Made by a program: the position numbers and the translations under genes. Positions 18,471 through 36,946 of a stretch of 64,000 nt of DNA are shown in pieces (the stretch's first letter is position 1; each line of letters begins with the position of its first letter). The notes beneath the pieces are model-generated. The model saw only the letters and a list, made by a program, of their open reading frames with translations. It had not been told where the DNA came from and did no database searches. The stretch is from Alphaproteobacteria bacterium (GTDB lineage: Bacteria; Pseudomonadota; Alphaproteobacteria; JAVJVX01): assembly GCA_040220875.1 (NCBI GenBank), contig JAVJVX010000005.1, positions 186,001 to 250,000 on the forward strand, read 5' to 3'.

Positions 18471-19196
18471 ATGCGGACCGAGATCATCAGTCACCCGTCG
18501 CCCAATTGCGAGGACCGTCCGTCCGGGCAGACGGTCGATACGCTGATCATTCATTACACCGGCATGCAGAGCTACCAGGCGGCACTCCGCAACATGTGCG
18601 ACCCCGCGGCCAAAGTCAGCGCCCATTACATGGTCGGACGCAACGGGCTGCGCTATCGGCTGGTGGATGAGGAACGCCGCGCCTGGCATGCCGGGATGGC
18701 GTCCTGGCAGGGGGCGGCCGATATCAACGACCGATCGATCGGGATCGAACTGGTCAATCCCGGCCACGAATGGGGCTACATCCCGTTTCCGGCGGCCCAG
18801 ATGGCAAGCCTCGAAGCGCTCATATTCGATATTCTGGAACGTCACCCGATCCCGGCCGAGCGTATTCTGGGTCACAGCGACGTGGCACCGCTGCGCAAAC
18901 AGGACCCGGGCGAATTATTCGACTGGCAGGGGCTCTCGGAAATCGGCCTTGGTGTCTGGCCGGGCGCCGACACGCCCGCCGACACGGTACCGGCACCCGA
19001 CGATGTCGGCGCAATTCAGACTCTGCTGCGCCGCTTTGGCTATGCCTGCCCCGATACCGGCCGACTTGATGACGAAACGCGGGCCGTGATCCTCGCCTTT
19101 CAGCGGCATTTTCAGCCAGAAGCGACCGGCCTGCCGCCCGATCCCGAGATGTGTCGCCGGCTGGCCGATCTGGCACAGCGCTTTGGCGCGCCCTAG
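18471..19196 (+). CDS. ampD: N-acetylmuramoyl-L-alanine amidase, AmpD type
   Basis: Zinc amidase of the Amidase_2 family that cleaves the lactyl-amide bond of anhydro-muropeptides during peptidoglycan recycling. The 241-residue protein lacks an export signal, fitting the cytoplasmic AmpD group. Probable zinc ligands are H28 in LIIHYTGM, and the His and Asp in HSDVAPLRKQDPGELFDW near 134 and 144. ISAHYMVGRNG-like and IGIELVNPGHEWGY segments are typical. Residues about 175-235 form a peptidoglycan-binding domain (IQTLLRRFGYACPDTG…LAFQRHFQP). It is 2 bases from uup and directly upstream of rnpB. Confidence 0.93.
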   Translation: MRTEIISHPSPNCEDRPSGQTVDTLIIHYTGMQSYQAALRNMCDPAAKVSAHYMVGRNGLRYRLVDEERRAWHAGMASWQGAADINDRSIGIELVNPGHEWGYIPFPAAQMASLEALIFDILERHPIPAERILGHSDVAPLRKQDPGELFDWQGLSEIGLGVWPGADTPADTVPAPDDVGAIQTLLRRFGYACPDTGRLDDETRAVILAFQRHFQPEATGLPPDPEMCRRLADLAQRFGAP

Positions 19197-19237: not shown

Positions 19238-19621
19238 GCCAGATGGCCGGATGGCCGCTCCCGCGACGCTTTTGCCCGCGGGGGAGGAAAGTCCGGGCTC
19301 CACGGAAACACGGTGCCGGGTAATGCCCGGCGGGGGCGACCCCAGGGAAAGTGCCACAGAGACCATACCGCCCGGCCCTCGAGCCGGGTAAGGGTGAAAA
19401 GGTGCGGTAAGAGCGCACCGCGCGGCCGGTAACGGCGGCGGCAGGGTAAACCCCACCGGGAGCAAGACCAAATAGGGGCGGCAGGCCTGGTTCTGCCAGG
19501 CAAGCGGGTTTCCGCGCCGTCGCCCGGGTCGGTCGCGCGAGGCGCCCGGTGACGGGCGTCCCAGATGAATGGCCATCCCCCGCCTCGGCGGGGACAGAAC
19601 CCGGCTTACAGGCCATCTGGC
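19238..19621 (+). ncRNA. rnpB: RNase P RNA (type A)
   Basis: Catalytic RNA of RNase P, which removes the 5' leaders of tRNA precursors. The ends close perfectly into helix P1: GCCAGATGGCC at 19238-19248 pairs with GGCCATCTGGC at 19611-19621. The conserved 5' core GAGGAAAGTCCGGGCTCC appears at about 19284-19301, and AGGGAAAGTGCCACAGA follows. The 3' core ACAGAACCCGGCTTACA lies just before the P1 3' strand. Length is about 384 bases, normal for type A. A run of T (19622-19627) follows the last P1 base. It sits between ampD and the mraZ regulatory region. Confidence 0.97.
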
Positions 19622-19993
19622 TTTTTTCTTTCATAACAGGGTCTTGTAAAAATCTGGCCGGGCGCCCGGCCGGTCCGGCCCCAAATAGAACATAAGTAGA
19701 ACAAAATATTGGTGACCGCAATATTTGGGGGTCCAAATCAAGCCTCCCCCTTTCATTTGGGGGTTGTGCCCCTTCGCGCCGAACCCGACCGGAAAATGGC
19801 TGAAAACCCAAGCGGTTACGGTCTATTTCCATTGACGCCCAAAATTACCCATGATATCCCATAACGTCCCAATCCCGGCAAGGATGGGGACGCGCCAGGA
19901 GGGGATGCCCGGGCCGATCCCGCCATCCGCATAACGGCGCACTGGGTATCGGCCGAGAGGGGGCCAAGGGCGATGACGCCCGTGGGGACGAAC
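19622..19993. promoter_or_regulatory. long leader region before the dcw cluster
   Basis: About 370 bases between rnpB and mraZ with no supported gene. It holds an AT-rich stretch (19640-19740) with the inverted repeat ATTTGG-GGGT-CCAAAT (19723-19738), a C5/G5 hairpin with an 8-base loop at 19746-19763, and four phased TGGGN repeats (19837-19871). This is the natural place for the main promoter of the mraZ-ftsZ cluster, but I cannot fix its -35 and -10 boxes with confidence. Confidence 0.5.
19837..19871 (-). promoter_or_regulatory. candidate MraZ-binding box: four TGGGN repeats at 10-bp period
   Basis: Read on the minus strand, this stretch gives TGGGA, TGGGA, TGGGT and TGGGC, each separated by exactly 5 bases. 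On the plus strand the units are at 19837-19841, 19847-19851, 19857-19861 and 19867-19871. MraZ is known from E. coli to bind TGGGN direct repeats with 5-bp spacers before its own gene. Position (about 120 bases before mraZ), unit and spacing all fit autoregulation. Confidence 0.8.
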
Positions 19994-20470
19994 GTGGCGC
20001 TGTTTCTTTCCACCTTCGTAAACAAGATCGACCGCAAGGGCCGGGTTTCGGTCCCTGCCCCCTTTCGTGCTGCCCTGGCCGGGCAGAGCTTTCACGGCCT
20101 GGTCGCGTTTCGGTCCTACAAGCTGCCCGCCGTGGAGGCCTTCGGTTTCGACCGCATGGAACAGATCTCGCGGAGCGTCGACGGTCTCGACCTGTTTTCC
20201 GACCGCCAGGACGATTTGACGGCGACGATTTTCGCCGATGCCCGCCAACTTGCTTTCGATGGCGAGGGGCGGATCATGCTGCCCGAAGATCTGCTGGCCC
20301 ATGCCGGCATCGCGGAACGCGCCGCCTTTGTCGGCCGTGGCCCCACTTTTCAGATTTGGGAACCCGAAGCCTTTGCCGCGCATCAGGAAACGGCGCGCGC
20401 CCGGGTCATCGCCGACGGCGCGACGCTCCACCTCAGTCCGCCGGCCGGGGGCGGAGGCAGCGCGCCATGA
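19994..20470 (+). CDS. mraZ: MraZ, transcriptional regulator of the dcw cluster
   Basis: DNA-binding protein with two SpoVT/AbrB-like repeats that forms rings and represses the division/cell wall cluster. I prefer the GTG at 19994: it gives the family's usual opening (MALFLSTFVNKIDRKGRVSV) and has GGGGA about 5 bases upstream. An in-frame ATG at 19973 would add 7 residues but has poor spacing to its ribosome-binding site. The first repeat has DRKGRVSVPAPFRAAL and the second has FDGEGRIMLPEDLLAHAGI. The protein is 158 residues, normal. Its stop overlaps the rsmH ATG. Confidence 0.95.
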   Translation: MALFLSTFVNKIDRKGRVSVPAPFRAALAGQSFHGLVAFRSYKLPAVEAFGFDRMEQISRSVDGLDLFSDRQDDLTATIFADARQLAFDGEGRIMLPEDLLAHAGIAERAAFVGRGPTFQIWEPEAFAAHQETARARVIADGATLHLSPPAGGGGSAP

Positions 20471-21495
20471 TGGCGGACGACACCCCTTTCGCCACCAGCC
20501 ACGCCGCGACAAACAGCGGCCATCTCCCCGTTATGATCGCCGAAGTGCTTGCCTTCCTCGCGCCACATGAGCGGGGAATCTATGTCGATGGCACGTTCGG
20601 CGGCGGCGGCTACAGCCGCGCGCTTCTGGCGGGCGGGGCCGGCAAGGTATTCGGCATCGACCGCGACCCGGAAGCTGTGGCGCGCGGGCAGGCGCTGGCC
20701 GACGAGCAGCCGGGACGTTTCGTGATGCTGAAGGGAACGTTCGGGCGGATGGACTCGCTCGTACGCGCCAATGGCACCGATTTCGTCGACGGGATCGCCC
20801 TCGATCTGGGCGTGTCCTCTTTCCAGCTGGACGACCCGGCGCGCGGCTTTTCTTTCGCCAAGGACGGGCCGCTCGACATGCGTATGAGCCAGGGAGACGG
20901 CGGAGACGCGAGTGCGGCCGATCTCGTCAACCAGGCGGAAGAAAAGGAATTGGCCCGGATTTTTCGCGAGTACGGAGAGGAGCGCTTCGCGCGGCGCATC
21001 GCCCGCGCGATCATCGAGCGCCGGATGCAGGGCCCCATCACCCGCACGGGCGAACTCGCGGAGATCATTCGGGACGCTGTCCCGGGCGGACGCAGGCAGA
21101 AATCGTCCAAGGCCAGCAAGATCGATCCCGCGACTCGCAGTTTTCAGGCGCTCAGGATCGCCGTGAACCACGAAATGGAGGAATTGGACCAGGGGCTGGC
21201 GGCGGCAGAGGAACTCCTCCGGCCGGGGGGCCGGTTGGCGGCCGTCTCCTTTCACTCGCTCGAGGACCGCCGGGTCAAATCCTTTCTCCGCCGTCGCAGC
21301 GGCGATCGGCCCAGCCCGTCGCGCCATCTGCCGCCGGTCCCCGAGACGCTGGCCGAGCGCCCTGGATTTCGCCAGTTGACCCGCCGGGCGGTGAAACCCG
21401 GCGCAGCCGAGATCGCCCGCAATCCCCGCGCCCGCTCGGCCCGGCTGCGGGCGGCCGAACGACTGGCCGCGGCCAGCCCGGGCGGAGGCGCGTGA
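20467..21495 (+). CDS. rsmH: 16S rRNA (cytosine(1402)-N(4))-methyltransferase RsmH
   Basis: SAM-dependent enzyme that N4-methylates C1402 in the ribosomal P site. The 342-residue protein has HLPVMIAEVLAFL near the start, the SAM motif YVDGTFGGGGYSRALL, and LDLGVSSFQLDDPARGFSF and FHSLEDRRVKSF, all RsmH hallmarks. The ATG at 20467 overlaps the mraZ stop (ATGA), so a longer upstream reading is not needed. The end overlaps the ftsL start region. Confidence 0.97.
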   Translation: MMADDTPFATSHAATNSGHLPVMIAEVLAFLAPHERGIYVDGTFGGGGYSRALLAGGAGKVFGIDRDPEAVARGQALADEQPGRFVMLKGTFGRMDSLVRANGTDFVDGIALDLGVSSFQLDDPARGFSFAKDGPLDMRMSQGDGGDASAADLVNQAEEKELARIFREYGEERFARRIARAIIERRMQGPITRTGELAEIIRDAVPGGRRQKSSKASKIDPATRSFQALRIAVNHEMEELDQGLAAAEELLRPGGRLAAVSFHSLEDRRVKSFLRRRSGDRPSPSRHLPPVPETLAERPGFRQLTRRAVKPGAAEIARNPRARSARLRAAERLAAASPGGGA

Positions 21496-21908
21496 TGCGC
21501 CGGTCCACCCTGTTCTCCCTCGCTTTCGCCCTGCTTCTCGGGATCTTCGTCTTCGCCGTGAAGTACCAGGTAATGGATCTTGAACGCGAAGTGACACAAC
21601 TCAACCGCGACATCCTTTCCAGCGAGGAAGCTATCCACGTGCTCGAGGCCGAATGGAGCTTCCTCAATCAGCCGGACCGGTTGCGCAAACTTTCGGGCAA
21701 ATATCTCGACCTCGCCCCCGCGCGATCCGATCAGTTCATCACCCTCGACGCATTTCGCCAGCGCTACCCGGATTTACCCGCGACGCCCCGGGCGCCGGCC
21801 CGGCCCGAAGCCACGAGCCGGCCCGGCCCCGTCGCTTCGCACGACCGCGGCACCTCGCAGAGCTCCGTCGTCGTCGAACCAGCCGCCCTCACGGGAGGCC
21901 ATCCATGA
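21495..21908 (+). CDS. ftsL: FtsL, cell division protein
   Basis: Small bitopic divisome protein that pairs with FtsB and helps activate FtsW-FtsI. The 137 residues comprise a short cytoplasmic start, a membrane helix at about 5-22 (LFSLAFALLLGIFVFAV), then a leucine-zipper-like coiled coil (MDLEREVTQLNRDI…IHVLEAEWSFLNQPDRL), as expected. The tail after about 90 is Pro/Ala-rich. GGAGG at 21484-21488 is 6 bases before this ATG; a GTG at 21492 is possible but too close. Assigned from structure and the fixed rsmH-ftsL-ftsI order, since FtsL sequence is poorly conserved. Confidence 0.9.
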   Translation: MRRSTLFSLAFALLLGIFVFAVKYQVMDLEREVTQLNRDILSSEEAIHVLEAEWSFLNQPDRLRKLSGKYLDLAPARSDQFITLDAFRQRYPDLPATPRAPARPEATSRPGPVASHDRGTSQSSVVVEPAALTGGHP

Positions 21909-23629
21909 CCAGAGCCAGACGCAGCGCCTCAGGCCAGGCCGGCACCACGCCCGGAAAACACGGCCGGGTCCAAATGGACGGGCACGTCAAGCAGGCGCTT
22001 GAAACCGGGCGCACGCGCATCGTCATCATGAGCGCGCTGTTCGTGCTGGCGTTTTTCGTGGTCGGCCTGCGCCTCTTCGAGGTCATGGCGCTCAACCGCG
22101 CGGCCGAGCCGCGACTTGCCAAAATGCCCGAGACAGCGAGCCTGCACATGGCGCGCGCCGATATCGTCGACCGCAACGGCGTGCTGCTCGCGACCAATCT
22201 TGCGACCGCCTCACTCTACGCTGAACCGCGTCGCGTGCTGGATCCCGCGGACGCCGCGCGCCGGCTGGTGCGGGTCCTTCCCGGCCTTTCCGAGCCGGAG
22301 CTCCGCGCCAAGCTGTCCGGTGGGCGAAGCTTCGTCTGGCTTCAGCGCAACCTGACACCGGGCCAGCAATACGAGGTGAACCGTCTCGGTCTGCCGGGCC
22401 TGCAGTTCCTGCGCGAGGAGCGTCGTGTCTATCCGCATGGCCCCGCGGCCGCGCACGTGCTGGGCATGACAAACGTGGACAACGAGGGTCTCTCGGGCGT
22501 GGAAAAAGGCCTGGATGATCTTCTGCGCACCAGCCAGTCGCCGGTACGGCTGTCCGTGGATATCCGGGTGCAGAGCATTCTGCGCGATGAGCTTTCGAAG
22601 AAGGCCGAAGAATTCAGCGCGAGCGGCGCCGCCGGCATCATGATGGACGTGACCAGCGGCGAAATCATCGCCCTCGTCTCGCTGCCGGACTTCGATCCGA
22701 ACCAGCCAGGTACGGTGAACGCGGCCACGACGTTCAACCGCATCACGCTCGGCGTCTACGAGATGGGGTCCACCTTCAAAACGTTTTCCACGGCGCTAGC
22801 GCTGGAAAAGGGAACGGTCACCCTTTCGGACCAATACGAAACGTCCGACCCGATCCGTATCGCCCGGTTCACCATCCGCGATTTCAAGCCGAAGAAGGGG
22901 CCGCTCAGCGTGCCCGAAATCTTCATGTACTCATCCAATATCGGCACCGCCAAGATGGCCATGGATGTCGGCACCCAGGCCCAGCGCGACTTTCTCGACC
23001 GGATCGGCCTTCTTTCGACGCCGCACCTCGAACTGCCCGAGATCGGCTCGCCCCTCGTGCCGGCGCGCTGGCGCGACATCAACACCATGACGATTTCCTT
23101 CGGCCACGGCCTTGCCGTGACGCCGCTCCAGATGGCGACGGCCACCTCGGCGATCGTCAACGGCGGCACTCTGCCCCGCGCAACGCTGCTTGCCCATGAC
23201 ACGGATGACCGGGTCGAGACCGGCCCGCGTATCATCTCCCCGCGCACGTCCGAAAAAATGCGCCACCTCCTGCGCCTCGCCGTCGAGCACGGCACCGGCA
23301 GCCATGCCGTGGCGCCAGGCTACCTTGTGGGCGGCAAGACGGGCACGGCGGAAAAGACGTCGGACGGGCGGTACGGTGAGGGGTTGCTGTCCTCGTTCTC
23401 GGCAGCCTTTCCAATCAATGACCCGCGCTACGTGCTGGTCGTTCTGATCGACGACCCGAAAGGTACAAAGGAATCTTTCGGCTACGCGACCGGCGGCTGG
23501 ACCGCAGCGCCGGTGGTCGGCAGCGTCGTCGAAAAGGCGGCACCCCTGCTTGGCGTGCGCCCGACGCTGCGTTTTCAAGATCCCAAATTCGAAGAACTCC
23601 TTACCCATGTGGGAACACGGGGACACTGA
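21905..23629 (+). CDS. ftsI: FtsI (PBP3), septal peptidoglycan transpeptidase
   Basis: Class B penicillin-binding protein that cross-links septal peptidoglycan in complex with FtsW. The 574-residue protein has one membrane helix at about 38-58. The PBP dimerisation domain begins at RADIVDRNGVLLATNL. The transpeptidase domain carries the three active-site motifs STFK (289-292, catalytic Ser289), SSN (343-345) and KTG (478-480). The ATG at 21905 overlaps the ftsL stop (ATGA). Length is typical. Confidence 0.97.
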   Translation: MTRARRSASGQAGTTPGKHGRVQMDGHVKQALETGRTRIVIMSALFVLAFFVVGLRLFEVMALNRAAEPRLAKMPETASLHMARADIVDRNGVLLATNLATASLYAEPRRVLDPADAARRLVRVLPGLSEPELRAKLSGGRSFVWLQRNLTPGQQYEVNRLGLPGLQFLREERRVYPHGPAAAHVLGMTNVDNEGLSGVEKGLDDLLRTSQSPVRLSVDIRVQSILRDELSKKAEEFSASGAAGIMMDVTSGEIIALVSLPDFDPNQPGTVNAATTFNRITLGVYEMGSTFKTFSTALALEKGTVTLSDQYETSDPIRIARFTIRDFKPKKGPLSVPEIFMYSSNIGTAKMAMDVGTQAQRDFLDRIGLLSTPHLELPEIGSPLVPARWRDINTMTISFGHGLAVTPLQMATATSAIVNGGTLPRATLLAHDTDDRVETGPRIISPRTSEKMRHLLRLAVEHGTGSHAVAPGYLVGGKTGTAEKTSDGRYGEGLLSSFSAAFPINDPRYVLVVLIDDPKGTKESFGYATGGWTAAPVVGSVVEKAAPLLGVRPTLRFQDPKFEELLTHVGTRGH

Positions 23630-23630
23630 G

Positions 23631-25127
23631 GTGCGGTTGGACGAGGTGCTGGCTTTCCAAGACATACAGGAGTCCGCTGATGCCGCTCGCGCGATCCAGA
23701 TCGCGGGGCTGACGGCGGATTCCCGCGACGTCCTGCCGGGATTTCTCTTTGCCGCCCTGCCAGGGGCGAAGGCCGACGGCGCGCGTTTCGTGCCCGATGC
23801 CATCCGCAACGGAGCGGCGGCAATTCTGGCCGGAACGCAGAGCGATATCACCAATTCGCCGGTGCCCGTAATTCGCACGAGCCGGCCCCGGCGGTCATTC
23901 GCCCTGGCCGCCGCCGCCTTCTACAAGGAGCAACCCCATACCATCGCCGCCGTTACCGGAACCAACGGCAAATCATCCGTCGCCTTTTTTGTTGCCCAGC
24001 TCTGGCATCGCCTGGGCCTGCCCGCGGCCAGCCTCGGCACGCTCGGACTTTCCGTTCCGGGCCGGCCGGCCGCCGTTCAGGCCGCGGGCGGGCTGACGAG
24101 TCCCGATCCGGTCCTGTTGCATCGCCTGCTCGCCCGGCTCGCCAGCGAAGGCATCGACTACCTCGCGCTCGAAGCATCCAGCCACGGACTCGACCAGGCC
24201 CGGCTCGACGGCGTGAAAATCGCCGCCGCCGCCTTCACCAACCTGTCGCGCGACCATCTCGATTATCACCCCGACATGGCCGCCTATTTCGCCGCCAAGG
24301 CCCGGCTTTTCGACGAGGTCATGGCGCCGGGTGGCGTCGCCGTGCTCAACGCCGACAGCCCCTGTTACGCGCCACTGTGCGAAATTGCCGCCGCCCGCCG
24401 CCACCGGGTCGTGAGCTACGGCCGGGCCGGGCGGGATTTGATGCTGCGCGGGGTAACGGCGGACGCGGACGGGCTGTCGTTGACGGTTGCCCATGAGGGA
24501 ACCGATTTCGAGATGCGGCTTTCCCTTCTGGGCGTGTTCCAGGCCGAGAATGTGCTGGCCGCGGCGGGACTCGTCATGGGGCTCGGCCGACCGTTCCGGG
24601 AGATCGTCGCGGAGGCCCCCGCGCTGGTCACCGCGCCGGGCCGGATGGAACGCGTGGCACGCCACCGGGGTGCCGACATTCTGGTTGATTACGCGCACAC
24701 ACCCGATGCGCTCCGCAATGTGCTCGAAGCCGCGAGAGCACATTGCGGAAACCGCCTCGTCGTCGTTTTCGGCGCCGGCGGTGACCGTGACCCTGGCAAG
24801 CGTCCCCTCATGGGCGAGGCAGCCGCGCGCGCGGCCGACCGGGTTTTCGTCACCGATGACAATCCGCGGAGCGAAGATCCGGCCGCCATCCGACAGGCGA
24901 TCCTCCAGGCCTGCCCCGGCGCGCGGGAAATCGCCGGCCGGCGCGAGGCCATCGCAACCGCCATGGAGTCTCTCGCGCCGGATGACCTTCTGATTGTCGC
25001 CGGCAAGGGGCACGAGCAGGGCCAGATAATCGGCCAGGCCATCCATCCATTCGACGACCGCGAGATCGTCCGCGAGATCGCGCGGGCCGCCAGGGTCGAC
25101 GACCGCGAGGGGGAGGCGCGCCCATGA
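23631..25127 (+). CDS. murE: MurE, UDP-MurNAc-tripeptide synthetase (meso-diaminopimelate-adding)
   Basis: Mur ligase adding the third residue to UDP-MurNAc-L-Ala-D-Glu. The ATP loop TGTNGKSS is at about 109-116. YHPDMAAYFAAKARLF carries the region of the carbamylated lysine. The DNPR motif near 410 predicts meso-diaminopimelate as substrate, as expected for a Gram-negative. I use the GTG at 23631, one base after the ftsI stop, with GGGGA at 7 bases; an in-frame ATG at 23607 would overlap ftsI. 498 residues, normal length. Confidence 0.96.
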   Translation: MRLDEVLAFQDIQESADAARAIQIAGLTADSRDVLPGFLFAALPGAKADGARFVPDAIRNGAAAILAGTQSDITNSPVPVIRTSRPRRSFALAAAAFYKEQPHTIAAVTGTNGKSSVAFFVAQLWHRLGLPAASLGTLGLSVPGRPAAVQAAGGLTSPDPVLLHRLLARLASEGIDYLALEASSHGLDQARLDGVKIAAAAFTNLSRDHLDYHPDMAAYFAAKARLFDEVMAPGGVAVLNADSPCYAPLCEIAAARRHRVVSYGRAGRDLMLRGVTADADGLSLTVAHEGTDFEMRLSLLGVFQAENVLAAAGLVMGLGRPFREIVAEAPALVTAPGRMERVARHRGADILVDYAHTPDALRNVLEAARAHCGNRLVVVFGAGGDRDPGKRPLMGEAAARAADRVFVTDDNPRSEDPAAIRQAILQACPGAREIAGRREAIATAMESLAPDDLLIVAGKGHEQGQIIGQAIHPFDDREIVREIARAARVDDREGEARP

Positions 25128-26602
25128 CCGCGGCCATGACCGCACTCTGGACATCGGAAGAGGCTGCCCGGGCCACGGGTGGCGCAACCGATCGGCCGTG
25201 GCGCGCGAGCGGCGTCTCCATTGACACACGTCGCCTTGAGGCGGGCGATCTGTTCGTGGCGCTGAAGGGCCCCAATTTCGACGGCCATGACTTTGTCGCA
25301 GCCGCGTCCGGAAACGGCGCCGCGGCCGCGGTCGTGAGCCGGGACTTCGAGGCCGGACGGGGGACCACACCCTTGCTGCGGGTCGATGATACCACACGAG
25401 CACTCCGCGATCTCGGCAAGGCGGCCCGCGCCCGCTGCCCGGCAAAACGCATCGCGATCACCGGCAGTGTCGGCAAGACCGGTACCAAGGAAGCCGTCCG
25501 CTGCGGGCTCGCGCCCCAGGGGCGCACCTACGCGAGCGCCGGCAATCTCAATAATGCCTATGGCGTGCCGCTCAGCCTGTCGCGGCTGCCTAGGGATTCC
25601 GAATATGCGGTGTTTGAACTGGGCATGAACCACGGGGGCGAGATCAGCGAGCTGACCCGAATGGTGGCACCAAACATCGCCGTCATCACCACGATCGAGC
25701 CCGTGCACCTCGAATTCTTCCAGTCCATCGCCGGCGTCGCCGATGCCAAGGCGGAAATCTTCGAAGGCATGACGGGTGGCACGGCGGTCCTCAACCGGGA
25801 GAACCCGTTTTTTCACTATCTTTCGGAAAAGGCCGATCGTGCCGGCATTGCCCGCATTCTCTCTTTCGGGGCGCATCCCGACGCGGATGCACGCCTGCAC
25901 GCCTATCGCTCACAAGAGTTCGCCGGCGAGGCGGGCGCCAATATCGGGAGCGAGATCGGGAGCGAGGTGGAGGCCGTGGTCATGGGCAGCCCGCTTCGCT
26001 ATGCGATAGGCCTGCCGGGCCGCCATTCGGCGCTGAACAGCCTGGCTGCGCTGGCCGCCATTCATGCCGCGGGGGGCGATATCGAGACGGCGGCCGCACA
26101 TTTCGCCACGCTCTCGCCGCTGCAGGGAAGGGGTGCGCGCCAGCGTCTTCGTCTCGATTGCGGACCCGTGACCCTGATCGACGAGACCTACAATGCCAGC
26201 CCGGCGGCGACACGCGCCGCGCTCCAGGTTTTCGGTGACCTCGCGCCCGAAGGCAACGGGCGGCGGATTTTCGTCCTCGGCGACATGCTCGAACTGGGGC
26301 CCGAGGCCGAACGCCTGCACCGGGCGCTGGCCCGGGACATCTCGGCCGCTCAGGTGGCGCGCGTGTTCACCGTCGGCCCGCTCGCCGCTTCCCTGATGGC
26401 GGATCTGCCGGCCGACAAGAGAGCCCGGGCCGTGGAACAGGCGGCCGATTTGGCGGAACCGCTTCTCGCCGAGCTTCAGGCCGGCGACATCGTTCTCATC
26501 AAGGGGTCTGCCGGGGTGGCGCTACACCGGCTGCGCGACGCCCTGCTCTCCGCCAGCCGTGTTGACCGGCCCGTCCGCGACAGGCCGGCAAAGGAGGCCT
26601 GA
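25124..26602 (+). CDS. murF: MurF, UDP-MurNAc-pentapeptide synthetase
   Basis: Adds D-Ala-D-Ala to UDP-MurNAc-tripeptide in an ATP-dependent step. The 492-residue protein has the N-terminal SIDTRRLEAGDLFVAL fold shared with MurE, the ATP loop ITGSVGKTGTKE at about 111-122, NLNNAYGVPLSL and FELGMNHGGEI (MurF-specific). The C-terminal domain includes DETYNASPAATRAAL and LGDMLELG. The ATG overlaps the murE stop by 4 bases; mraY follows after 3 bases. Confidence 0.97.
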   Translation: MTAAMTALWTSEEAARATGGATDRPWRASGVSIDTRRLEAGDLFVALKGPNFDGHDFVAAASGNGAAAAVVSRDFEAGRGTTPLLRVDDTTRALRDLGKAARARCPAKRIAITGSVGKTGTKEAVRCGLAPQGRTYASAGNLNNAYGVPLSLSRLPRDSEYAVFELGMNHGGEISELTRMVAPNIAVITTIEPVHLEFFQSIAGVADAKAEIFEGMTGGTAVLNRENPFFHYLSEKADRAGIARILSFGAHPDADARLHAYRSQEFAGEAGANIGSEIGSEVEAVVMGSPLRYAIGLPGRHSALNSLAALAAIHAAGGDIETAAAHFATLSPLQGRGARQRLRLDCGPVTLIDETYNASPAATRAALQVFGDLAPEGNGRRIFVLGDMLELGPEAERLHRALARDISAAQVARVFTVGPLAASLMADLPADKRARAVEQAADLAEPLLAELQAGDIVLIKGSAGVALHRLRDALLSASRVDRPVRDRPAKEA

Positions 26603-26605
26603 AGC

Positions 26606-27694
26606 ATGCTCTACAACCTTCTCGTCCCCCTGGCCGACGAGCACGCCATTTTTAATCTTTTTCGTTATCTCACCTTTCGCACCGGCGGCGGTGTCCTGAC
26701 CGCCCTTTTTATCTGCTTCCTGTTCGGCCGACCGCTCATCGACTGGTTGCGCCGTCAGCAGAAATACGGCCAGCCCATCCGTGACGACGGACCGGAGACG
26801 CATATCGTTTCCAAGGCCGGAACACCCACCATGGGCGGGTTTCTCATCCTGATCGCACTCTCGATCAGCACGCTGCTCTGGGCCGACCTCAGCAACGGCT
26901 TCGTCTGGATCGTGCTCTTTGTCGCCGTCGGCTTCGGCGCTGTCGGTTTCGCCGACGATTTTCTCAAGATCCGCCGGCGCAGCCATCATGGCGTGCCCGG
27001 CAAGCTGCGCATGGCCCTGGAAATCGCCATCGCCCTGGTCGCGGCCTACCTGATCGCCGTCAGCCTGCCCGAAGGCACGGGCACCAGCCTGTCAATTCCG
27101 TTTCTCAAGCAGGTGCTGGTGGAATTCGGCTGGCTCTATCTTGCGTTCTCGGTCTTCGTGATCGTGGGTGCTTCCAATGCGGTCAACCTGACGGACGGGC
27201 TCGACGGCCTGGCCATCGGACCGGTGATGATCGTGGCCGGCTGCTTTGCCCTGATCGCCTATCTTGTCGGGAACGCGGTCTTCGCCAATTACCTGCAGAT
27301 CAACTACGTGCCCGGCACGGGCGAGTTGGCCGTTCTCTGCGGCGCGCTGGTCGGCGCGAGCCTCGGTTTCCTCTGGTTCAACGCGCCACCCGCCATGGTC
27401 TTTATGGGGGATACGGGTTCGTTGTCCGTCGGCGGCGCCCTGGGCGCGATCAGCGTCGTGACCAAGCACGAACTCGTGCTTGCCATCATCGGCGGGCTGT
27501 TCGTCCTGGAAACCGTATCGGTGATCGTTCAGGTCGCCTCCTACAAGCTGACCGGACGGCGCGTGTTCCGCATGGCGCCGTTGCACCACCATTTTGAGAA
27601 AAAAGGCTGGGCCGAACCCACGGTGGTGATCCGCTTCTGGATCATCGCCCTGGTGCTTGCCCTGATCGGCCTGTCCACGTTGAAGCTGCGATAG
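26606..27694 (+). CDS. mraY: MraY, phospho-MurNAc-pentapeptide translocase
   Basis: Integral membrane enzyme that transfers phospho-MurNAc-pentapeptide to undecaprenyl phosphate, giving lipid I. The 362-residue protein is made of about ten membrane helices. Catalytic features are [11 protein letters not shown] near 115 (Asp-Asp), [10 protein letters not shown] near 194 and [12 protein letters not shown], plus [12 protein letters not shown] in the final loop. The early PTMGGFLIL segment is also diagnostic. Confidence 0.97.
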
Positions 27695-27710
27695 AGGTCC
27701 TCGGCACGCC

Positions 27711-29096
27711 GTGATTACGCTCGATGCATACAAGGAAAAGACGGTTGCCGTGATGGGTCTCGGCGCCTCGGGCCTCGCGACGTTGAAAGCACTTCGCGCC
27801 GGCGGCGCGACGGTCCTGGCCTGGGACGACGCACCCGAACGGCGCGCCACCGCGGCAGGTCTGGGGGCAAGCGTGCAGGATCTCGCCGCGGCCGGGTTCG
27901 GCGACGCAATCTTGCTGGTGCTGAGCCCGGGAATCCCGCTGAACCACCCCGCGCCCCATCCGGCCGTCGCCCGCGCACGGCGGGACGGCGTGCCGATCAC
28001 CGGCGACGTCGCGCTTTTGCGCGCAGCCCAGGGCGATGCGTTTTTCATCGCCATTACCGGCACGAACGGCAAATCGACCACCACCGCGCTTGCGGGCCAT
28101 CTGCTGCGGCAGGCAGGCCGACCCGTCCAGGTGGGCGGAAATCTCGGCCGGCCGGCGCTCGATCTCGACCCTCTCGGTGCCGGTGGAATCTACGTACTGG
28201 AGCTGTCCTCCTACCAGCTCGACCTTCTCGACGACCCGGGCTTTGACGTCGCGGTGCTGCTCAATATCTCGCCCGATCATCTTGACCGCCATGGCGGGCT
28301 CGCGGGCTATATCGCAGCCAAGCGGCGGATCTTTGAGGGCCGCAAGTTCGGTGATGTCGCCATCGTTGGGGCCGATGACGCGCATTGCCGCGCGATACTC
28401 GATACGCTGCGCGAAGACCACGAGCGCACCGTCATCGCCGTTTCCGGATGCGATGCCGGGCCCCGCCGCATTTTTGCCGATGCGAGCGGACGACTGATCG
28501 AGACCACGCAGGGCCGCGAGCGGGCGATCGCCGACCTTTCCGCCAGCCTGACCCTGCGCGGCACGCATAACCGGCAGAACGCCGCTGCCGCCGCGGCCGT
28601 GGCCAGAACCGTCGGCATTTCCGTGAAGGAAGTGGCTGCCGGGCTGGAAAGCTTTCCCGGGCTTGCCCATCGTCAGGAACTCGTCGCCCGCAAGGGGGAT
28701 CTGCTGTTCGTGAATGACAGCAAGGCCACGAACGGCGCGGCCGCCGCCCGGGCACTTCAGTCCTACGACAGCGTTTTCTGGATTCTGGGCGGGCGCGCCA
28801 AGGCAGACGGGCTGGGCGAGGCGATCGACCATCTCGCGGCCGTCCGCCACGCCTACGCCATCGGCGAAGCGGGCCCGGATTTCGCCGGCCGGCTGAAGGG
28901 CCGGGTTCCCGTCACCCTCTCCCGCGATCTGGCCACCGCCCTGGGAGACGCTGAAAGGGACGCAAGCGGAGACCCGCAGGCGGGCGAGAAGGTAATCCTC
29001 CTGTCGCCGGCCGCCGCCTCCTTCGACCAGTTCCGGAATTTCGAGGAAAGGGGTGATTGTTTTCGCGCCCTCGTCCTCGGGGAGGCGGCCGCGTGA
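27711..29096 (+). CDS. murD: MurD, UDP-MurNAc-L-alanine:D-glutamate ligase
   Basis: Adds D-glutamate to UDP-MurNAc-L-Ala. The 461-residue protein opens with a UDP-binding Rossmann-like region (VAVMGLGASGLATLKAL). The ATP loop TGTNGKSTTT is near 116. VLELSSYQLD and NISPDHLDRHGGLAGY (lysine/histidine region) and FVNDSKATNGAAAARAL follow. The start is GTG at 27711, 16 bases after mraY. Its stop overlaps the ftsW GTG. Confidence 0.96.
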   Translation: MITLDAYKEKTVAVMGLGASGLATLKALRAGGATVLAWDDAPERRATAAGLGASVQDLAAAGFGDAILLVLSPGIPLNHPAPHPAVARARRDGVPITGDVALLRAAQGDAFFIAITGTNGKSTTTALAGHLLRQAGRPVQVGGNLGRPALDLDPLGAGGIYVLELSSYQLDLLDDPGFDVAVLLNISPDHLDRHGGLAGYIAAKRRIFEGRKFGDVAIVGADDAHCRAILDTLREDHERTVIAVSGCDAGPRRIFADASGRLIETTQGRERAIADLSASLTLRGTHNRQNAAAAAAVARTVGISVKEVAAGLESFPGLAHRQELVARKGDLLFVNDSKATNGAAAARALQSYDSVFWILGGRAKADGLGEAIDHLAAVRHAYAIGEAGPDFAGRLKGRVPVTLSRDLATALGDAERDASGDPQAGEKVILLSPAAASFDQFRNFEERGDCFRALVLGEAAA

Positions 29097-30217
29097 ACAG
29101 TTTTGCCCGCACCGATACGAGCACGCTGGGCCGCTGGTGGTGGACGGTGGACCACTGGCTGCTGGGGGCCCTGGCAGCACTGATTTTCGTCGGCGCGCTG
29201 CTGACCCTGGCCGCGAGCCCCCCCGTGGCGGAGCGGGTCGGCCTCGATTCCTTCCACTTCGTCAAGCGCCAGTGGATGATCCTGCCTGTCGCCGTCATGA
29301 TCATGGTCGGCGTGTCCCTGCTCAGCCCGCAGAACATCCGGCGGACCGCTGTCGTGGTGTTCGTCGCCTCGGTCGGCCTTCTCGTCCTCACGCTGCTGGT
29401 CGGCCCCGAGATCAAGGGCGCGCGACGCTGGCTGCCGGTGATGAGCTTTTCGCTGCAGCCCTCGGAGATCGCCAAGCCCGCCTTTGCCGTCGTCACCGCC
29501 TGGATGTTCGCGGAGCACCGTTTGCGGCCCGAATTCCCGGGCTACCGCATCGGCGCGGCTCTTCTCATGCTGATGATCGGCCTGCTTGTCCTGCAGCCGG
29601 ATCTCGGCATGACGGTGGTGGTGAGTACCGTCTGGTTCACCCAGTTGTTTGCCGCCGGCCTCCCGATGATCTTCGTCATCCTGCTGGGCATCCTCGGGAT
29701 CGGCGGACTGGTCGGTGCCTATTTCCTGCTGCCCCACGTCGCCAGCCGGATTGACCGCTTTCTCGATCCCGCCGCCGGCGACAGCTACCAGATCAACCGA
29801 TCCCTCGAAGCGTTCGCCAATGGCGGCATCTTCGGCCGTGGCCCGGGCGAAGGGGTGATAAAGACCATGCTGCCCGACGCCCATGCCGATTTCATTTTTT
29901 CGGTCGCGGGAGAGGAGTTCGGGCTGATCGCCTGCCTCCTGCTGGTGGCGCTGTTCGCCTTTGTCGTAATCCGCGGTCTCGGGCGGCTGCTGCAGGACCA
30001 AAATTTCTTCGTCATGCTGGCCGGCACGGGACTTGTCGTCATGTTCGGCGTGCAGGCGCTGGTGAACATGGGCTCGTCCCTGCATCTCCTGCCGACGAAG
30101 GGCATGACGCTGCCCTTTATCAGCTACGGCGGCTCATCGCTGATCGGGCTGGCCTTCGCCATGGGCATGGTGCTGGGGCTTACCCGACGCCGCCCCCATC
30201 AGGGAGGCAGCGCATGA
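29093..30217 (+). CDS. ftsW: FtsW, septal peptidoglycan glycosyltransferase
   Basis: SEDS-family membrane protein that polymerises lipid II into glycan strands at the septum together with FtsI. The 374 residues form about ten membrane helices. SEDS markers are GARRWLPVMSFSLQPSEIAK, YQINRSLEAFANGGIFGRGPGEG, LPDAHADFIFSVAGEEFG and LPFISYGGSSLIG. I choose the GTG at 29093, which overlaps the murD stop (GTGA); a start further upstream would lie inside murD. Confidence 0.97.
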   Translation: MNSFARTDTSTLGRWWWTVDHWLLGALAALIFVGALLTLAASPPVAERVGLDSFHFVKRQWMILPVAVMIMVGVSLLSPQNIRRTAVVVFVASVGLLVLTLLVGPEIKGARRWLPVMSFSLQPSEIAKPAFAVVTAWMFAEHRLRPEFPGYRIGAALLMLMIGLLVLQPDLGMTVVVSTVWFTQLFAAGLPMIFVILLGILGIGGLVGAYFLLPHVASRIDRFLDPAAGDSYQINRSLEAFANGGIFGRGPGEGVIKTMLPDAHADFIFSVAGEEFGLIACLLLVALFAFVVIRGLGRLLQDQNFFVMLAGTGLVVMFGVQALVNMGSSLHLLPTKGMTLPFISYGGSSLIGLAFAMGMVLGLTRRRPHQGGSA

Positions 30218-31404
30218 AGGCCGATACGCCGCGCCATCCCGCGATCGTGCTTGCCTCCGGCGGCACTGGCGGCCATGTCTTCCCGGCCGACGCGCTGGCA
30301 CGAGAACTCGTCCGTCGCGGCATATCCGTCTATCTGTTCACCGACAAGCGGGGCGCGGCCTTTGGTGCCGCACCCGGGGCCGAGACAGGCGAGATCGGCG
30401 TACGCACTGTCCCGGCCGCCCGCTTGGCGCGAAATCCGCTCCGCCTGGGCCACACCCTGGTCCAGCTCGGCAGGGGCGTCTGCCTCGCGCGTCGGGCCCT
30501 CAAGGCAGTCGACGCGGCGGCGGTGGTCGGTTTCGGCGGGTATCCGTCCCTGCCGACGCTGATGGCCGCCCGACTCTTGCGTCTTCCGATCATCCTGCAC
30601 GAACAGAACGCCGTGCTCGGCCGCGCCAACCGCCTCATGGCCCCGGCGGCCCGGATCATCGCCACCAGCTTCGCCGCGGTGAAATTTCTCAAGCCCCGCG
30701 CGGATCAGAAAGTGGTGCTGACCGGTAATCCGGTCCGGGCCGAGATCGCTGATATCGGCGCCCGGACATTTCATCATCCGGCGCCAAGCGGTCCGGTCGG
30801 TCTGCTGGTCTTTGGCGGCAGTCAGGGTGCTGCCATCTTTTCCCGCGTGGTGCCCGAAGCGCTTGCGCGCCTCGACTCCTCGCTCCGGACCCGAATCAAG
30901 GTGGTCCAGCAATGCCGCGAGGAGGACCTTGAGCGCGTGCGCACGATCTATGCCGCCGCCGGGATCGAGGCCGAGACCCGGACTTTCTTCGACGACATGC
31001 CCGCTCGGCTGGTCGCCGCCCATCTGGTGATCGCGCGTGCTGGCGCTTCCACCGTCGCCGAACTGGCGGCCGCCCACCGGCCCGCCGTTCTTGTCCCCTA
31101 CCCCCATGCGGCCGACAACCACCAGCGTGCCAATGCCGAAGCCATGGCCGCCGCCGGCGCGGCGGTGGTGATCCCCGAAGACGCGTTCGATGCGGAACGT
31201 CTGGCCGACCACCTCGCCGATCTGTTGCGGGGTGGCGCGACCGGGCTGCGCAAGACGGCGAGCGCCGCAGGACGAATCGCCAGGCCCGCCGCCGCCCGAC
31301 ATCTCGCCGATCTTGTCCTTGCCGTCACACCGTCCCTCGATGCCGGCGAAGACAGCGAAGGAACCACCCGCAGCACCTACATCCGCCAGGAGGCCATCCG
31401 ATGA
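30214..31404 (+). CDS. murG: MurG, lipid II-forming N-acetylglucosaminyltransferase
   Basis: GT28-family enzyme that adds GlcNAc to lipid I at the inner face of the inner membrane. The 396-residue protein has the donor loop [14 protein letters not shown] (about 14-27), [30 protein letters not shown] and [10 protein letters not shown] in the second domain, then [13 protein letters not shown] for UDP-GlcNAc binding. It is slightly longer than usual because of a 30-residue C-terminal tail. The ATG overlaps the ftsW stop. Confidence 0.97.
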
Positions 31405-32867
31405 CCACGCACCGCATGCTGCCCTTGCCATTGGGCACGCTTCACTTCATCGGCATCGGCGGAATCGGCATGAGCGGTATCGCCGAGATCCTGGTGAATC
31501 TGGGTTACAAGGTTCAGGGCAGCGACATGACGGAGAACGCCAATGTCCGTCGCCTGCGCGACCTCGGCGTGCACGTCTCCATCGGCCACAAGGCCGAAAA
31601 TCTGGATGGTGCCTCGGTCGTCGTCACCTCGAGCGCCGTCAAACCCGGCAACGTCGAGCTTGAAACGGCGCGGGCCCGGCTTCTGCCCGTGGTCCGCCGG
31701 GCGGAGATGCTGGCCGAATTGATGCGTCTGAAATGGTCCATCGCGGTGGGCGGGACTCATGGCAAGACCACCACGACGTCCCTGATCGCGGCGCTGCTTG
31801 ATGCCGCCGGGCTGGATCCCACGGTAATCAACGGCGGAATAATCAACGCCTATGGCACCAACGCGCGCCTGGGCGAAGGCGACTGGATGGTCGTGGAGGC
31901 CGACGAGTCCGACGGCACCTTCACCAAGCTGCCGGCGACCGTTGCCGCCGTCACCAATATCGACCCCGAGCATCTCGATTTTTACGGCTCCTTCGACAAG
32001 GTCCGCGAAGCCTTTACGGATTTCGTCGAGAACATCCCGTTTTATGGTTTCGCCGTTCTGTGCGTCGATCACCCGGAGGTGCAATCCCTGATCGCGCGGG
32101 TCCAGGACCGGCGCATCATCACCTACGGGCTGGGGCCGCAGGCCGACATCCGGGCCGTAAACATGGCCTCTTCGGTCGAGGGCGTGCGCTTCGATATCGC
32201 GTTCGCCAACCGCCAGAAGGGAACCGAACATCTCATCACCGGAATCACCCTGCCGATGCTGGGCCGGCACAACGTGCAGAACGCGCTCGCGGCGGCGGCG
32301 ATCATCCTCACGATGGGGCTCGACGAGCGGATCATCCGCAAGGGCTTTCGCACCTTCGGCGGCGTGAAGCGCCGCTTCACCATCACAGGTACCGCCGGGG
32401 GCATTACCGTGATCGATGATTACGGTCATCATCCGGTCGAGATCGCGGCCGTTGTCGGCGCCGCGCAGGCGGCGACCGAGGGTCGCGTCATTGCCGTCAT
32501 CCAGCCCCATCGGTATTCGCGCCTCCAGGCGCTTTTCGAGGATTTTTGCGCCTGCCTGAATGACGCGGACGTGGTGATCGTGGCCGATGTGTACGCCGCC
32601 GGCGAGGCACCGATCGAGGGAATCGACCGCGACGCACTGGTCCGCGGACTGACCGCGCACGGGCACCGCCAGGCCATCGCGCTTGAAACCCCGTCCGACC
32701 TCGCCCGCATGATCGCCGATATGGCGGAACCGGGTGATCTCGTCGTCTGTCTCGGCGCGGGCTCGATCACCAACTGGGCGCAGTCGCTGCCCGGCGAACT
32801 GGAGGCGCAACTGCCCACGCCCTCGCACGCAGCGACGGCTAATGGCGAAGGCGGAGCCCGGGCATGA
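31401..32867 (+). CDS. murC: MurC, UDP-MurNAc:L-alanine ligase
   Basis: First Mur ligase, adding L-Ala to UDP-MurNAc. The 488-residue protein has the UDP-binding loop [15 protein letters not shown] (about 17-31), ATP loop [13 protein letters not shown] (about 115-127), [22 protein letters not shown] and [14 protein letters not shown] (MurC-specific His-His). The ATG overlaps the murG stop; the stop overlaps the murB ATG. Confidence 0.97.
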
Positions 32868-33832
32868 TGGTCGGCGTACGCAAGATCACCGACCGCCTGA
32901 TCGACCGGCTGCCGCCGGTGCGGGGCACCTATATCGAGGACGCCCCGCTGGGAGGCATGACCTGGTTTCGGGTTGGCGGCGCGGCCGAAACCCTGTTCCA
33001 GCCGGCCGACGCGGATGATCTGGCGGCTTTCCTCGCCGCCCGTCCCAAGGACATTCCCGTCACCATGCTCGGGCTGGGATCGAATCTCCTTGTCCGCGAT
33101 GGCGGCGTGCCCGGGGTGGTGATCCATATGGGCAAGCCCTTCGCCGAGATCACGGTCGAGGACGGCACGATCCATGCGGGCGCCGGCGCGGCCGGACTCA
33201 AGGTCGCCAATGCGGCCGCGGCGGGCGGTCTCGCGGGTCTTGAGTTCCTGGCCGGGATTCCGGGGACGGTCGGCGGCGCCATCCGCATGAATGCGGGCGC
33301 CTACGGGCACGAGGTCAGCGAGGTGCTGATCGATGCCGACACGATTTCGGGCATGGGGCGGCGCGAGCGGATTCCCGCCCGCGCCCTCGATTTCGGCTAC
33401 CGCCACAGCGCGCTTCCGCCGGATTCGGTCGTGATCGGCGGCACGTTCCATGCCCGTCGCGGCGATCCCGCGAAGATTCGTGCCCGGATCGCGGAAATTC
33501 GCGCCGCTCGCGAGGCAAGCCAGCCGCTGCGGACACGCACCGGCGGCAGCACGTTCAAGAACCCGCCGGGCGCAAACGCGCCCAAGGCGTGGGAACTCAT
33601 CGATGCGGCCGGCTGCCGCGGACTGTCACGCGGCGGCGCCATGGTTTCGGATCTGCACTGCAATTTCCTGATCAATACGGGCACCGCGACCGCAGCCGAT
33701 CTTGAAGAACTGGGTGAAGAAGTACGCCGGCGCGTGCGCGAGACGAGCGGGATCGAACTGGATTGGGAAATCCGCCGGGTCGGTCTGCCGGGGCCGAGTG
33801 GCCAACGTGGCCTGAAAGGCGGCCTGACATGA
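32864..33832 (+). CDS. murB: MurB, UDP-N-acetylenolpyruvoylglucosamine reductase
   Basis: FAD enzyme reducing enolpyruvyl-UDP-GlcNAc to UDP-MurNAc with NADPH. The 322-residue protein shows [31 protein letters not shown], then [20 protein letters not shown] and a C-terminal [11 protein letters not shown] with the catalytic Ser, all characteristic of the shorter type II MurB. ATGA junctions link it to murC and ddl. Confidence 0.97.
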
Positions 33833-34749
33833 GCCGGCGCGTTCTCGTCCTCAAAGGCGGCTGGTCGGCCGAGCGAGAGGTCTCTCTCGCGACCGGCGCC
33901 AACGTGACCCGGGCGCTCACGGAACTCGGCCACGACGTGATCGAAATCGATGCCGGGCATGACCTTCCGGCACGGATCACGGCGGTCTCGCCCGCGCCCG
34001 AGGTGGTGTTCAACGCGCTGCACGGCACCGGCGGCGAGGACGGGACCGTGCAAGGACTGCTCGAGGTGCTGGGCCTGCCCTACACCCATTCCCGCGTTCT
34101 GGCGTCCGCGCTCGCCATGCACAAGCCCACTGCAAAAAAACTGTTCGCTCAGGCTGGGCTTGCCTGTCCGCGCGGCCGGGTCATGACGAAACGCGAGCTT
34201 CTGGCGGGCGAGCCGATGGCCCGGCCCTTCGTGATCAAGCCCGTCGGGGAAGGGTCAAGCGTCGGGGTCCGCATCGTGGACGAAAATGATCCGGCCCTCG
34301 GAGATACCGGATTTGACTGGCCCTGGGCCGACCGGGTGCTTGTCGAGGAATTTATCCCGGGGCGCGAGATCACAGTTGCGGTCAAGGGCGGCGAGGCTCT
34401 GGGCGTGCTGGAAATCCGGGCAGCGACAAGCTTTTACGATTACGAGGCGAAATATACGCCCGGACGGTCCGACCACATTTTGCCCGCCGAGTTGCCGGCC
34501 GACATCTATGCCGCCGCCATGGCCATCGCCCGCGACGCCCATGCCTGTCTTGGCTGCCGCGGCGTCACGCGCGCCGATCTGCGCTTCGACGACATGTCCT
34601 CGCTGGCGCCGCGCCTCGCCCTTCTCGAAGTCAACACCCAGCCCGGCCTGACCCCGACCTCGCTGGTCCCCGAAATCGCGGCCCATGCCGGGATCGCTTT
34701 CCCCGATCTGGTGAACTGGATGGTGGAGGACGCCCTATGCCGCGGCTGA
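33829..34749 (+). CDS. ddl: D-alanine:D-alanine ligase
   Basis: ATP-grasp enzyme that joins two D-Ala for MurF. The 306-residue protein has VLKGGWSAEREVSLATG at the N-terminus (the HGGxSxEREVS-like loop with Gly-Trp in place of the usual variants), FNALHGTGGEDGTVQGLLE, PTAKKLFAQAGL, FVIKPVGEGSSVGV, VEEFIPGREITV and LLEVNTQPGLTP (metal-binding Glu and Asn). The ATG at 33829 overlaps the murB stop. Its last 13 bases overlap the ftsQ start. Confidence 0.96.
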   Translation: MSRRVLVLKGGWSAEREVSLATGANVTRALTELGHDVIEIDAGHDLPARITAVSPAPEVVFNALHGTGGEDGTVQGLLEVLGLPYTHSRVLASALAMHKPTAKKLFAQAGLACPRGRVMTKRELLAGEPMARPFVIKPVGEGSSVGVRIVDENDPALGDTGFDWPWADRVLVEEFIPGREITVAVKGGEALGVLEIRAATSFYDYEAKYTPGRSDHILPAELPADIYAAAMAIARDAHACLGCRGVTRADLRFDDMSSLAPRLALLEVNTQPGLTPTSLVPEIAAHAGIAFPDLVNWMVEDALCRG

Positions 34750-35621
34750 ATCCGTTCCCACGCCCGAAGACGAAGCGCATGCCCCGCCGCCGGTCGGCCA
34801 GCAGCCGCAGATCCGGCTGGCCCAGGCTCATCGCCTGGGGCAGCGGCGGCGCGGCGGCGGCCGCTCTGCTGGTGGGCGGCCCCTGGTATCTCTGGTCATC
34901 AGGCTGGATCGGGCATGCGGCGGAACGCGTGGAAACGGCTTTTTTCGAGCAAACCGTGGCCCATGGCTTGTTTGTCCGCGAGGCCCTGGTGCGCGGGCGC
35001 GTCGAGACCGACCCGGGCGAGTTGCGCGCCGCGCTCGGTGTCGCCTGGGGCGATCCCATCCTCGCCACCGATCTGGCGGCCGCCAAGGCCCGGCTCGAGG
35101 CGCTCGCCTGGGTCGAACGCGCCGCCGTCTCCCGCCGCCTGCCGGGCACGCTGGCCATTCATCTCTTCGAACGCCGGCCCGCCGCCCGCTGGCAGTCAGA
35201 CGCCCGACTGCACCTGATCGACCGTACCGGCGCCATTCTGGAGCGCGACATAGCGGCCCGGCATGCCGATCTGCCGGTGATCGCGGGCGACGGTGCGCTC
35301 GATCTGACCGAGACGCTGCTCCAGGCCATCTGGCGCCACCCCACCCTGGCCCGGCGACTGACCGCGGCCGTACGGATCGCCGGCCGGCGATGGAACCTGC
35401 GTTTCGATGACGCGGTGGAAGTCCGCCTGCCGGCGGAGAGTTTTGATGCGGCGCTGACGCGCCTCGCCGAGCTGGAATCGCGCGAAAAAATACTTTCACG
35501 CGACATGGCGGCGATCGATCTGCGCTTGCCTGACCGCATCACGGTCAAACCCCGCAACCTGCGTCCGTCCGGCACGCCAGGACCCGACACCCGGCGTGGG
35601 GCGTCGGGCCAGGACACGTGA
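34737..35621 (+). CDS. ftsQ: FtsQ, cell division protein
   Basis: Bitopic divisome protein that recruits FtsB/FtsL. The 294 residues begin with a basic cytoplasmic tail (many Arg/Lys to about residue 32), a membrane helix at about 37-57, a POTRA domain (VREALVRGRVETDPGELRAALGV…LEALAWVERAAVSRRLPGTLAIHLFERRP), then the FtsQ domain ending in DLRLPDRITVKP. The start overlaps the end of ddl by 13 bases, longer than the other junctions in the cluster. Confidence 0.93.
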   Translation: MPRLNPFPRPKTKRMPRRRSASSRRSGWPRLIAWGSGGAAAAALLVGGPWYLWSSGWIGHAAERVETAFFEQTVAHGLFVREALVRGRVETDPGELRAALGVAWGDPILATDLAAAKARLEALAWVERAAVSRRLPGTLAIHLFERRPAARWQSDARLHLIDRTGAILERDIAARHADLPVIAGDGALDLTETLLQAIWRHPTLARRLTAAVRIAGRRWNLRFDDAVEVRLPAESFDAALTRLAELESREKILSRDMAAIDLRLPDRITVKPRNLRPSGTPGPDTRRGASGQDT

Positions 35622-35628
35622 GCGAGAA

Positions 35629-36870
35629 ATGAAACTGCGTAACGATACCATCGCCGCCCTCGACATCGGCACCACCAAGACCTGCTGCCTGGTCGCCCGG
35701 ACCGGGCCCGACGGCATGCCCCGCGTCCGCGGCATCGGGCACCAGATGTCCAGGGGCCTCAAGGCGGGAGCGATCATCGATATGGACGCGGTGGAGGCCT
35801 CCATCCTCCAGGCGGTACACGCGGCCGAACAGATGGCGGGCGAGACGGTCCACTCGGTGCTCGTCAACCTGTCCTGCGGCCGCCCCGGCTCGCGCCGCCT
35901 GGATGTCGAAGTCGCACTCAATGGCCACGAGATCGGTGACGCGGATCTTCGCCGCGTATTCGAAGAGGGCCAGATCCATGTGGATCTTGAGGAACGCGAG
36001 GTCATCCATTCGATACCGGTTGGGTTCCGCGTCGACGATGCCTCCGGCATTCGCGACCCACGCGGGATGTTTGGTGACAATCTGGGCGTGGAAATGCACG
36101 TCATCACGGCCACGAGCGGCCCCGTCCGCAATCTCGTGACCTGTGTCGAGCGCAGCCATCTCGACATCGAGCGTGTCGTGCTCTCGGCCTACGCCTCGGG
36201 CCTGGCCTGCCTGGTCGAGGACGAGATGGATCTTGGCGCCACTGTGATCGACATGGGTGGCGGCACCACAAGCCTTGGCGTCTTCGTCAACGGCAAGGTC
36301 GTCTATACCGACGTGGTCCCGGTCGGCGGCCACCACGTAACCAGCGATATCGCGCGCGGGCTTTGCACCTCGGTGGCGGATGCGGAGCGCATCAAGACAC
36401 TCTATGGCAGCACTTCCACCTTGCCTGGCGATGACAAGGCCCGGATCGACGTGCCGCCCGTCGGCGAACCGCAGACGGGTGAGCCGAACTACGTCTCCAA
36501 ATCTCTGCTGCACCGGATCATCCGACCACGGATCGAGGAAACATTCGAAATGGTGCGCGCCGCGCTCGAAGCGAGCGGCCTCGATCGGCTGGCGGGGCGG
36601 CGGGTGATCCTGACCGGTGGCGCCTGCCAGCTACAGGGCGTGCGGGAACTGGCCGCCCTCATTCTCGACAAGCAGGTCCGCATCGGGCGGCCGGCCCGCA
36701 TTGCCGGGCTCGCTGAATCCATGAGCGGACCCGCCTTTTCAACGGCGGCCGGTCTGCTGCTCTACGCCAACGCGGCGGAAAACGAAGGATTTGGAATGGA
36801 ACAAGAGAGATCAGGCGACCCCGAGGGGTTTTTGCGCCGCCTGAGTCTCTGGCTGAAGGAGAACTTTTGA
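35629..36870 (+). CDS. ftsA: FtsA, actin-like membrane tether of FtsZ
   Basis: Actin-fold ATPase that anchors FtsZ to the inner membrane. The 413-residue protein opens with [17 protein letters not shown] (phosphate-binding loop 1). [22 protein letters not shown] is the second phosphate loop and [12 protein letters not shown] the adenosine motif. The C-terminal [13 protein letters not shown] is the amphipathic membrane-targeting helix. I choose the ATG at 35629, 7 bases after ftsQ. Confidence 0.97.
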
Positions 36871-36946
36871 GGCGCAAGGGAGCCCGGCGATGGCCATCCG
36901 GTCAGCACCGGAACAATCGAACCACTATGGGGAATGGAGATTTGAA

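Follow-up and report, generated by a model that had tools for sequence, protein, structure and literature searches.

The window, a 64,000-nucleotide stretch of alphaproteobacterial DNA, contains just upstream of mraZ an array of four TGGG boxes that we read as the operator through which MraZ controls the dcw cluster; it is embedded in the housekeeping promoter from which mraZ and the downstream genes would be transcribed, so that bound MraZ would occlude the polymerase. We put this reading at a probability of about 0.87; MraZ as the ligand, repression as the outcome and a reach as far as ftsZ are the steps that we infer. The putative MraZ boxes lie on the minus strand at 19838-19841, 19848-19851, 19858-19861 and 19868-19871, with a start-to-start spacing of exactly 10 bp. 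The minus strand over 19838-19871 reads TGGGACGTTATGGGATATCATGGGTAATTTTGGG, and the plus strand around 19826-19876 reads TTTCCATTGACGCCCAAAATTACCCATGATATCCCATAACGTCCCAATCCC, in which CCCA begins at 19838, 19848, 19858 and 19868. A degenerate fifth box on the same strand (TCCA on the plus strand, one mismatch) occurs in phase at the upstream end at 19828-19831, a position where many relatives have an intact CCCA and read CCCATTGACG. The three-box pattern matches twice in the window, compared with 0.04 matches expected from dinucleotide shuffles, and both matches are overlapping triples of the same four-box array. Across the 2.54 Mb of its own genome, the four-box pattern occurs once and the three-box pattern is confined to the array upstream of mraZ.

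The sequence-only reading had already described four phased, exactly spaced TGGG copies on the strand opposite to mraZ, and the array at 19838-19871 bears this out. The box unit that it proposed, TGGGN, needs correction, as the N is not conserved and the letters conserved across the class are (A)TGGG. Nor are four copies unusual, as it had supposed; alphaproteobacteria often have four or five, and Burkholderia cenocepacia has four (PMC7761207).

The gene that follows, mraZ (19973-20470, plus strand), is intact, and its product is related to solved MraZ structures. It passes the curated cut-offs for the family (Pfam PF02381, 62.7 bits against 23; NCBIfam NF001477, 169.7 against 162), and both D-x-x-x-R motifs are intact, the protein retaining the invariant D20-K22-G23-R24 and D96-G99-R100. 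A complete mraZ-to-ftsZ/lpxC cluster lies downstream, with all genes on the plus strand and overlapping or separated by short gaps, in the order rsmH, ftsI, murE, murF, mraY, murD, ftsW, murG, murC, murB, ddl, ftsQ, ftsA, ftsZ and lpxC. The part from rsmH to ftsZ (20470-38761), identified by Pfam matches in this order, is presumed to be transcribed from the mraZ promoter; ftsL (21492-21908, plus strand) was assigned by position only, and lpxC (38869-39960, plus strand) comes after ftsZ. On the upstream side, an N-acetylmuramoyl-L-alanine amidase gene (18471-19196, plus strand) precedes the RNase P RNA gene rnpB (19239-19624, plus strand), which lies directly before the mraZ promoter and ends with a terminator-like hairpin and a T run at 19610-19630. 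The rnpB-then-mraZ order was also seen in one other locus (L103), and in Pelagibacter rnpB adjoins mraZ (PMC2704228). A scan of viral contigs for MraZ found no relative, and several records filed as plasmids (for example CP090106.1 and NZ_OL790696.1) that carry mraZ have chromosome-like sizes and are probably mislabelled chromosomes or chromosome pieces.

The promoter in which the boxes are embedded was revealed by comparative alignment. A generic sigma-70 scan found no promoter at the locus because the −10 element, TATCCC, lacks the final T and matches the standard consensus poorly. When 48 families were aligned on their −35 elements, the block TTGAC-n-CCCAT-n5-CCCATGnTATCCCAT proved nearly invariant. 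Here the −35 element, TTGACG, occupies 19832-19837 on the plus strand, where TTGAC is conserved in the aligned families, and the putative extended −10 element, TGaTATCCC, occupies 19852-19860 at 17 bp from TTGACG, its final letters forming box 3. The TG and TAT letters are 92-98% conserved in the 48 aligned families and are confined to one particular gap between boxes, 17-18 bp from TTGAC, which points to an extended −10 element rather than a part of the repeat unit; this assignment is drawn from conservation and spacing. The promoter so placed predicts a start site at about 19866 and a mraZ leader of ~107 nt (19866-19972, plus strand). An 11-nt inverted repeat (CGTCCCAATCC / GGATGGGGACG, 6-nt loop) at 19865-19892 begins close to where transcription is predicted to start, and the transcript may thus carry a hairpin at its 5' end. 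For Sinorhizobium meliloti the same promoter model predicts a leader of 171-172 nt, and the published mraZ leader is 170 nt (PMC5089854); the locus analysed was from strain Ak57, so this is a match between strains of one species and not proof.

Conservation of the array was assessed at the mraZ loci of a single representative genome for each alphaproteobacterial family, with the mraZ start placed by profile, which gave 108 usable families. An array was counted when four CCCA boxes spaced at period 10, with 14 or more of their 16 letters matching, lay no more than 350 bp upstream of mraZ. By this definition 80 of the 108 families keep the array, while control periods from 6 to 14 other than 10 gave an array in 0-2 families and dinucleotide shuffles of the 108 families gave none with four boxes. 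A TGGG array on the mraZ strand was found in 0 of the 108. Roughly one family in four has fewer or weaker boxes, and in a few no box is recognisable. With an array profile trained without this window, 42 of the 61 held-out families scored above the limit set by 99.9% of shuffles, a conservative figure because the held-out set, apart from this window, comprised families in which either the four-box threshold or the strict anchoring on −35 had failed; the same profile recovered 0 of 31 gamma- and betaproteobacterial loci. The array also follows its presumed regulator. Among 29 genomes with mraZ, CCCATGnTATCCCA is found in 23 (25 sites), and all sites but one lie just upstream of mraZ, compared with a single occurrence (in G019) among 27 genomes without detected mraZ, where no mraZ frame follows the motif. 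The three-box pattern shows the same link to mraZ once chance and low-complexity matches are removed. Because the mraZ-negative set includes incomplete drafts, absence counts for less there. The check proposed at the outset, that the repeats be kept in relatives, thus has a clear answer, as they recur across the class at exactly period 10 and are missing where mraZ is missing. The accompanying proposal of a MraZ site controlling the dcw cluster in this lineage is supported as regards a probable operator, by the intact mraZ and the class-wide array, but not as regards the restriction to a lineage, the feature being class-wide.

The array thereby shows the marks of a MraZ operator: it lies upstream of mraZ at the head of the dcw cluster, it has at least three direct repeats with a TGG/GTG core at a 10-bp period (here four TGGG), and it is kept in relatives with mraZ and lost where mraZ is lost. 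It departs from the E. coli form, in which G precedes TGG and the boxes follow the −10 element on the strand of mraZ; here they are antisense, read (A)TGGG and sit on the core promoter. We treat this mismatch as a variant because the criteria concerned describe the E. coli form and not MraZ binding as such.

Placement relative to the promoter separates Alphaproteobacteria from the other bacteria compared. In Gamma- and Betaproteobacteria, Bacillota, Actinomycetota and Bacteroidota the boxes are GTGG on the mraZ strand and, where the promoter is readable, come after the −10 element, whereas in Alphaproteobacteria they are (A)TGGG on the opposite strand, tile the core promoter and sit farther upstream than elsewhere in the comparison. 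In the rest of the phylum, 23 of 30 families have a GTGG array at period 10 on the mraZ strand; E. coli and other Gammaproteobacteria have the promoter TTGACA...TAAACT followed by GTGGG boxes on that strand. Sense orientation was also seen in loci of Burkholderia, Bacillus, Paenibacillus, Subdoligranulum, Nonomuraea, Tsukamurella, Microbacterium, Phocaeicola and Bacteroides, and more weakly in Legionella and Monoglobus, and the opposite orientation on the core promoter in Sinorhizobium, Rhizobium and Shinella. One alphaproteobacterial locus (L276, family f23) breaks this rule: its GTGG array (AGTGGGCCAAAGTGGCCTAAAGTGGC), about 300 nt upstream of mraZ, is on the sense strand. What is new in this analysis is the inversion of the boxes and their embedding in the promoter, which hold class-wide with few exceptions; the orientation, singled out early as worth a look, is the real peculiarity. 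The sense form being common to four phyla, it is the inverted one that is probably derived. Our literature search, which covered the two founding MraZ-site papers (Eraso 2014, Fisunov 2016) through citations in other work, found no mention of the inversion.

Characterised systems resemble the array in part and differ from it in layout. The E. coli Pmra/mraZ1p operator (Eraso et al. 2014, as reported through PMC7761207 and PMC8475190) likewise has phased TGG boxes at a 10-bp period before mraZ for a regulator of the same family, but with GTGGG on the mraZ strand in three good copies after the −10 element, as opposed to (A)TGGG on the other strand from the −35 element to the start site. B. cenocepacia PmraBc, where gel shifts show MraZ bound to four repeats at a 10-bp period (PMC7761207), matches the present array in number and period but has GTG motifs downstream of the −10 element and over the start site (PMC7761207); in a B. 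stagnalis locus the mraZ strand reads GTGGG..GTGTG. The Mollicute site, (AAAGTGK N3)x3, bound by a MraZ octamer (Fisunov et al. 2016, as cited in PMC5282649), also consists of direct repeats of period 10 in a dcw promoter, although its unit is AAAGTGK instead of (A)TGGG and its protein is only distantly similar. The UpsM/mraZ promoter of Rhodobacter sphaeroides is likewise an alphaproteobacterial dcw promoter, whose transcripts start at −268 and whose leader holds an sRNA and a terminator (PMC5089854), unlike the leader of ~107 nt predicted here; the passages of that account on leader and start mention no MraZ boxes. In family f23 (loci L275-L303, including genome G022), which is probably Rhodobacteraceae, antisense arrays lie about 290-320 nt before mraZ, near the published UpsM start, and UpsM may therefore be controlled by MraZ. 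An Rfam search of the probable Rhodobacteraceae leaders for UpsM gave no match.

The letters of the boxes differ along the same taxonomic line. In box orientation, alphaproteobacterial arrays have A before TGG in 76% and G after it in 88%, compared with G before TGG in 84% of Gamma/Betaproteobacteria and 83% of other phyla, where G after TGG is little constrained (51% and 44%, respectively). Beside the DNA-binding loop, alphaproteobacterial MraZ has N at position 17 (84%) and K/R at position 18 (94%); elsewhere in the phylum, position 18 is N/S/T (91%) and position 17 mostly L/I/V. Residues 17, 18 and 98 (window 20021-20026 and 20264-20266), next to both D-x-x-x-R loops, are N, K/R and E/D in Alphaproteobacteria and different in other bacteria. 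The joint change suggests that the box shift from GTGG to ATGGG and the MraZ loop residues co-evolved, a correlation that shared ancestry alone could also produce.

In the proposed mechanism, the boxes, spaced by about one helical turn (10 bp), would all face the same side of the DNA and be bound there by a MraZ ring that covers the −35 element, spacer, −10 element and start site, so that RNA polymerase could not load. The consequence would be autorepression of mraZ and the genes sharing its promoter. An effect extending to ftsZ is suggested by gene order alone, and dcw clusters of other bacteria are known to contain internal promoters. We favour this explanation because the array is retained in most families and in no shuffle, TTGAC and TGnTAT are conserved at fixed places between boxes, most held-out families but no gamma- or betaproteobacterial loci are recovered, the motif tracks mraZ, the predicted S. 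meliloti start falls within 2 nt of the published leader length, the invariant residues of MraZ are kept, and in E. coli, B. cenocepacia and Mollicutes MraZ is known to bind phased repeats upstream of its own gene. Against it count the quarter of families with fewer or weaker boxes, the poor −10 element and a literature search that found no binding data for any alphaproteobacterial MraZ.

A further point against it is that the regulatory sign of MraZ is not fixed, since MraZ supports dcw expression in Neisseria elongata, where dcw transcripts fall when mraZ is lost and rise when it is in excess (PMC9395523). MraZ might thus bind these boxes and activate, for example by helping polymerase at the weak −10 element. 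We consider activation improbable, as a ring bound over −35, spacer, −10 and start site should exclude polymerase, and MraZ is a repressor in E. coli and Mycoplasma genitalium. Less probable still is that another regulator binds the phased boxes. CtrA and NtrX have been placed upstream of mraZ in alphaproteobacteria, but their published motifs (TTAA-type and GCAn9TGC) are unlike the boxes, the array follows the presence of mraZ, and the TGG core and 10-bp period match known MraZ sites. That promoter letters and chance together account for the repeats, without any operator, can be practically dismissed, for although part of the conservation is the promoter itself, boxes outside the hexamers, upstream of −35 and downstream of the start site, retain both phase and sequence, and shuffles and other periods yield almost no arrays.

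With MraZ-mediated occlusion as the preferred reading, a broader scenario, to which we give even odds, is that early Alphaproteobacteria inverted the operator, moved it from after the −10 element onto the core promoter and changed the box from GTGG to ATGGG together with the recognition loop (N17-K/R18), arriving at direct promoter occlusion, with UpsM in Rhodobacteraceae also under MraZ. Few bacterial regulators are as widespread as MraZ, and published accounts disagree on its sign, repression or activation; a class with boxes on the −35 and −10 elements, where geometry predicts repression by occlusion, offers a natural contrast. UpsM, the abundant R. sphaeroides sRNA made from the mraZ promoter (PMC5089854), may be a MraZ target. 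The analysis also yields a dcw promoter model that can be used across the class to which Caulobacter, Sinorhizobium and Rhodobacter belong.
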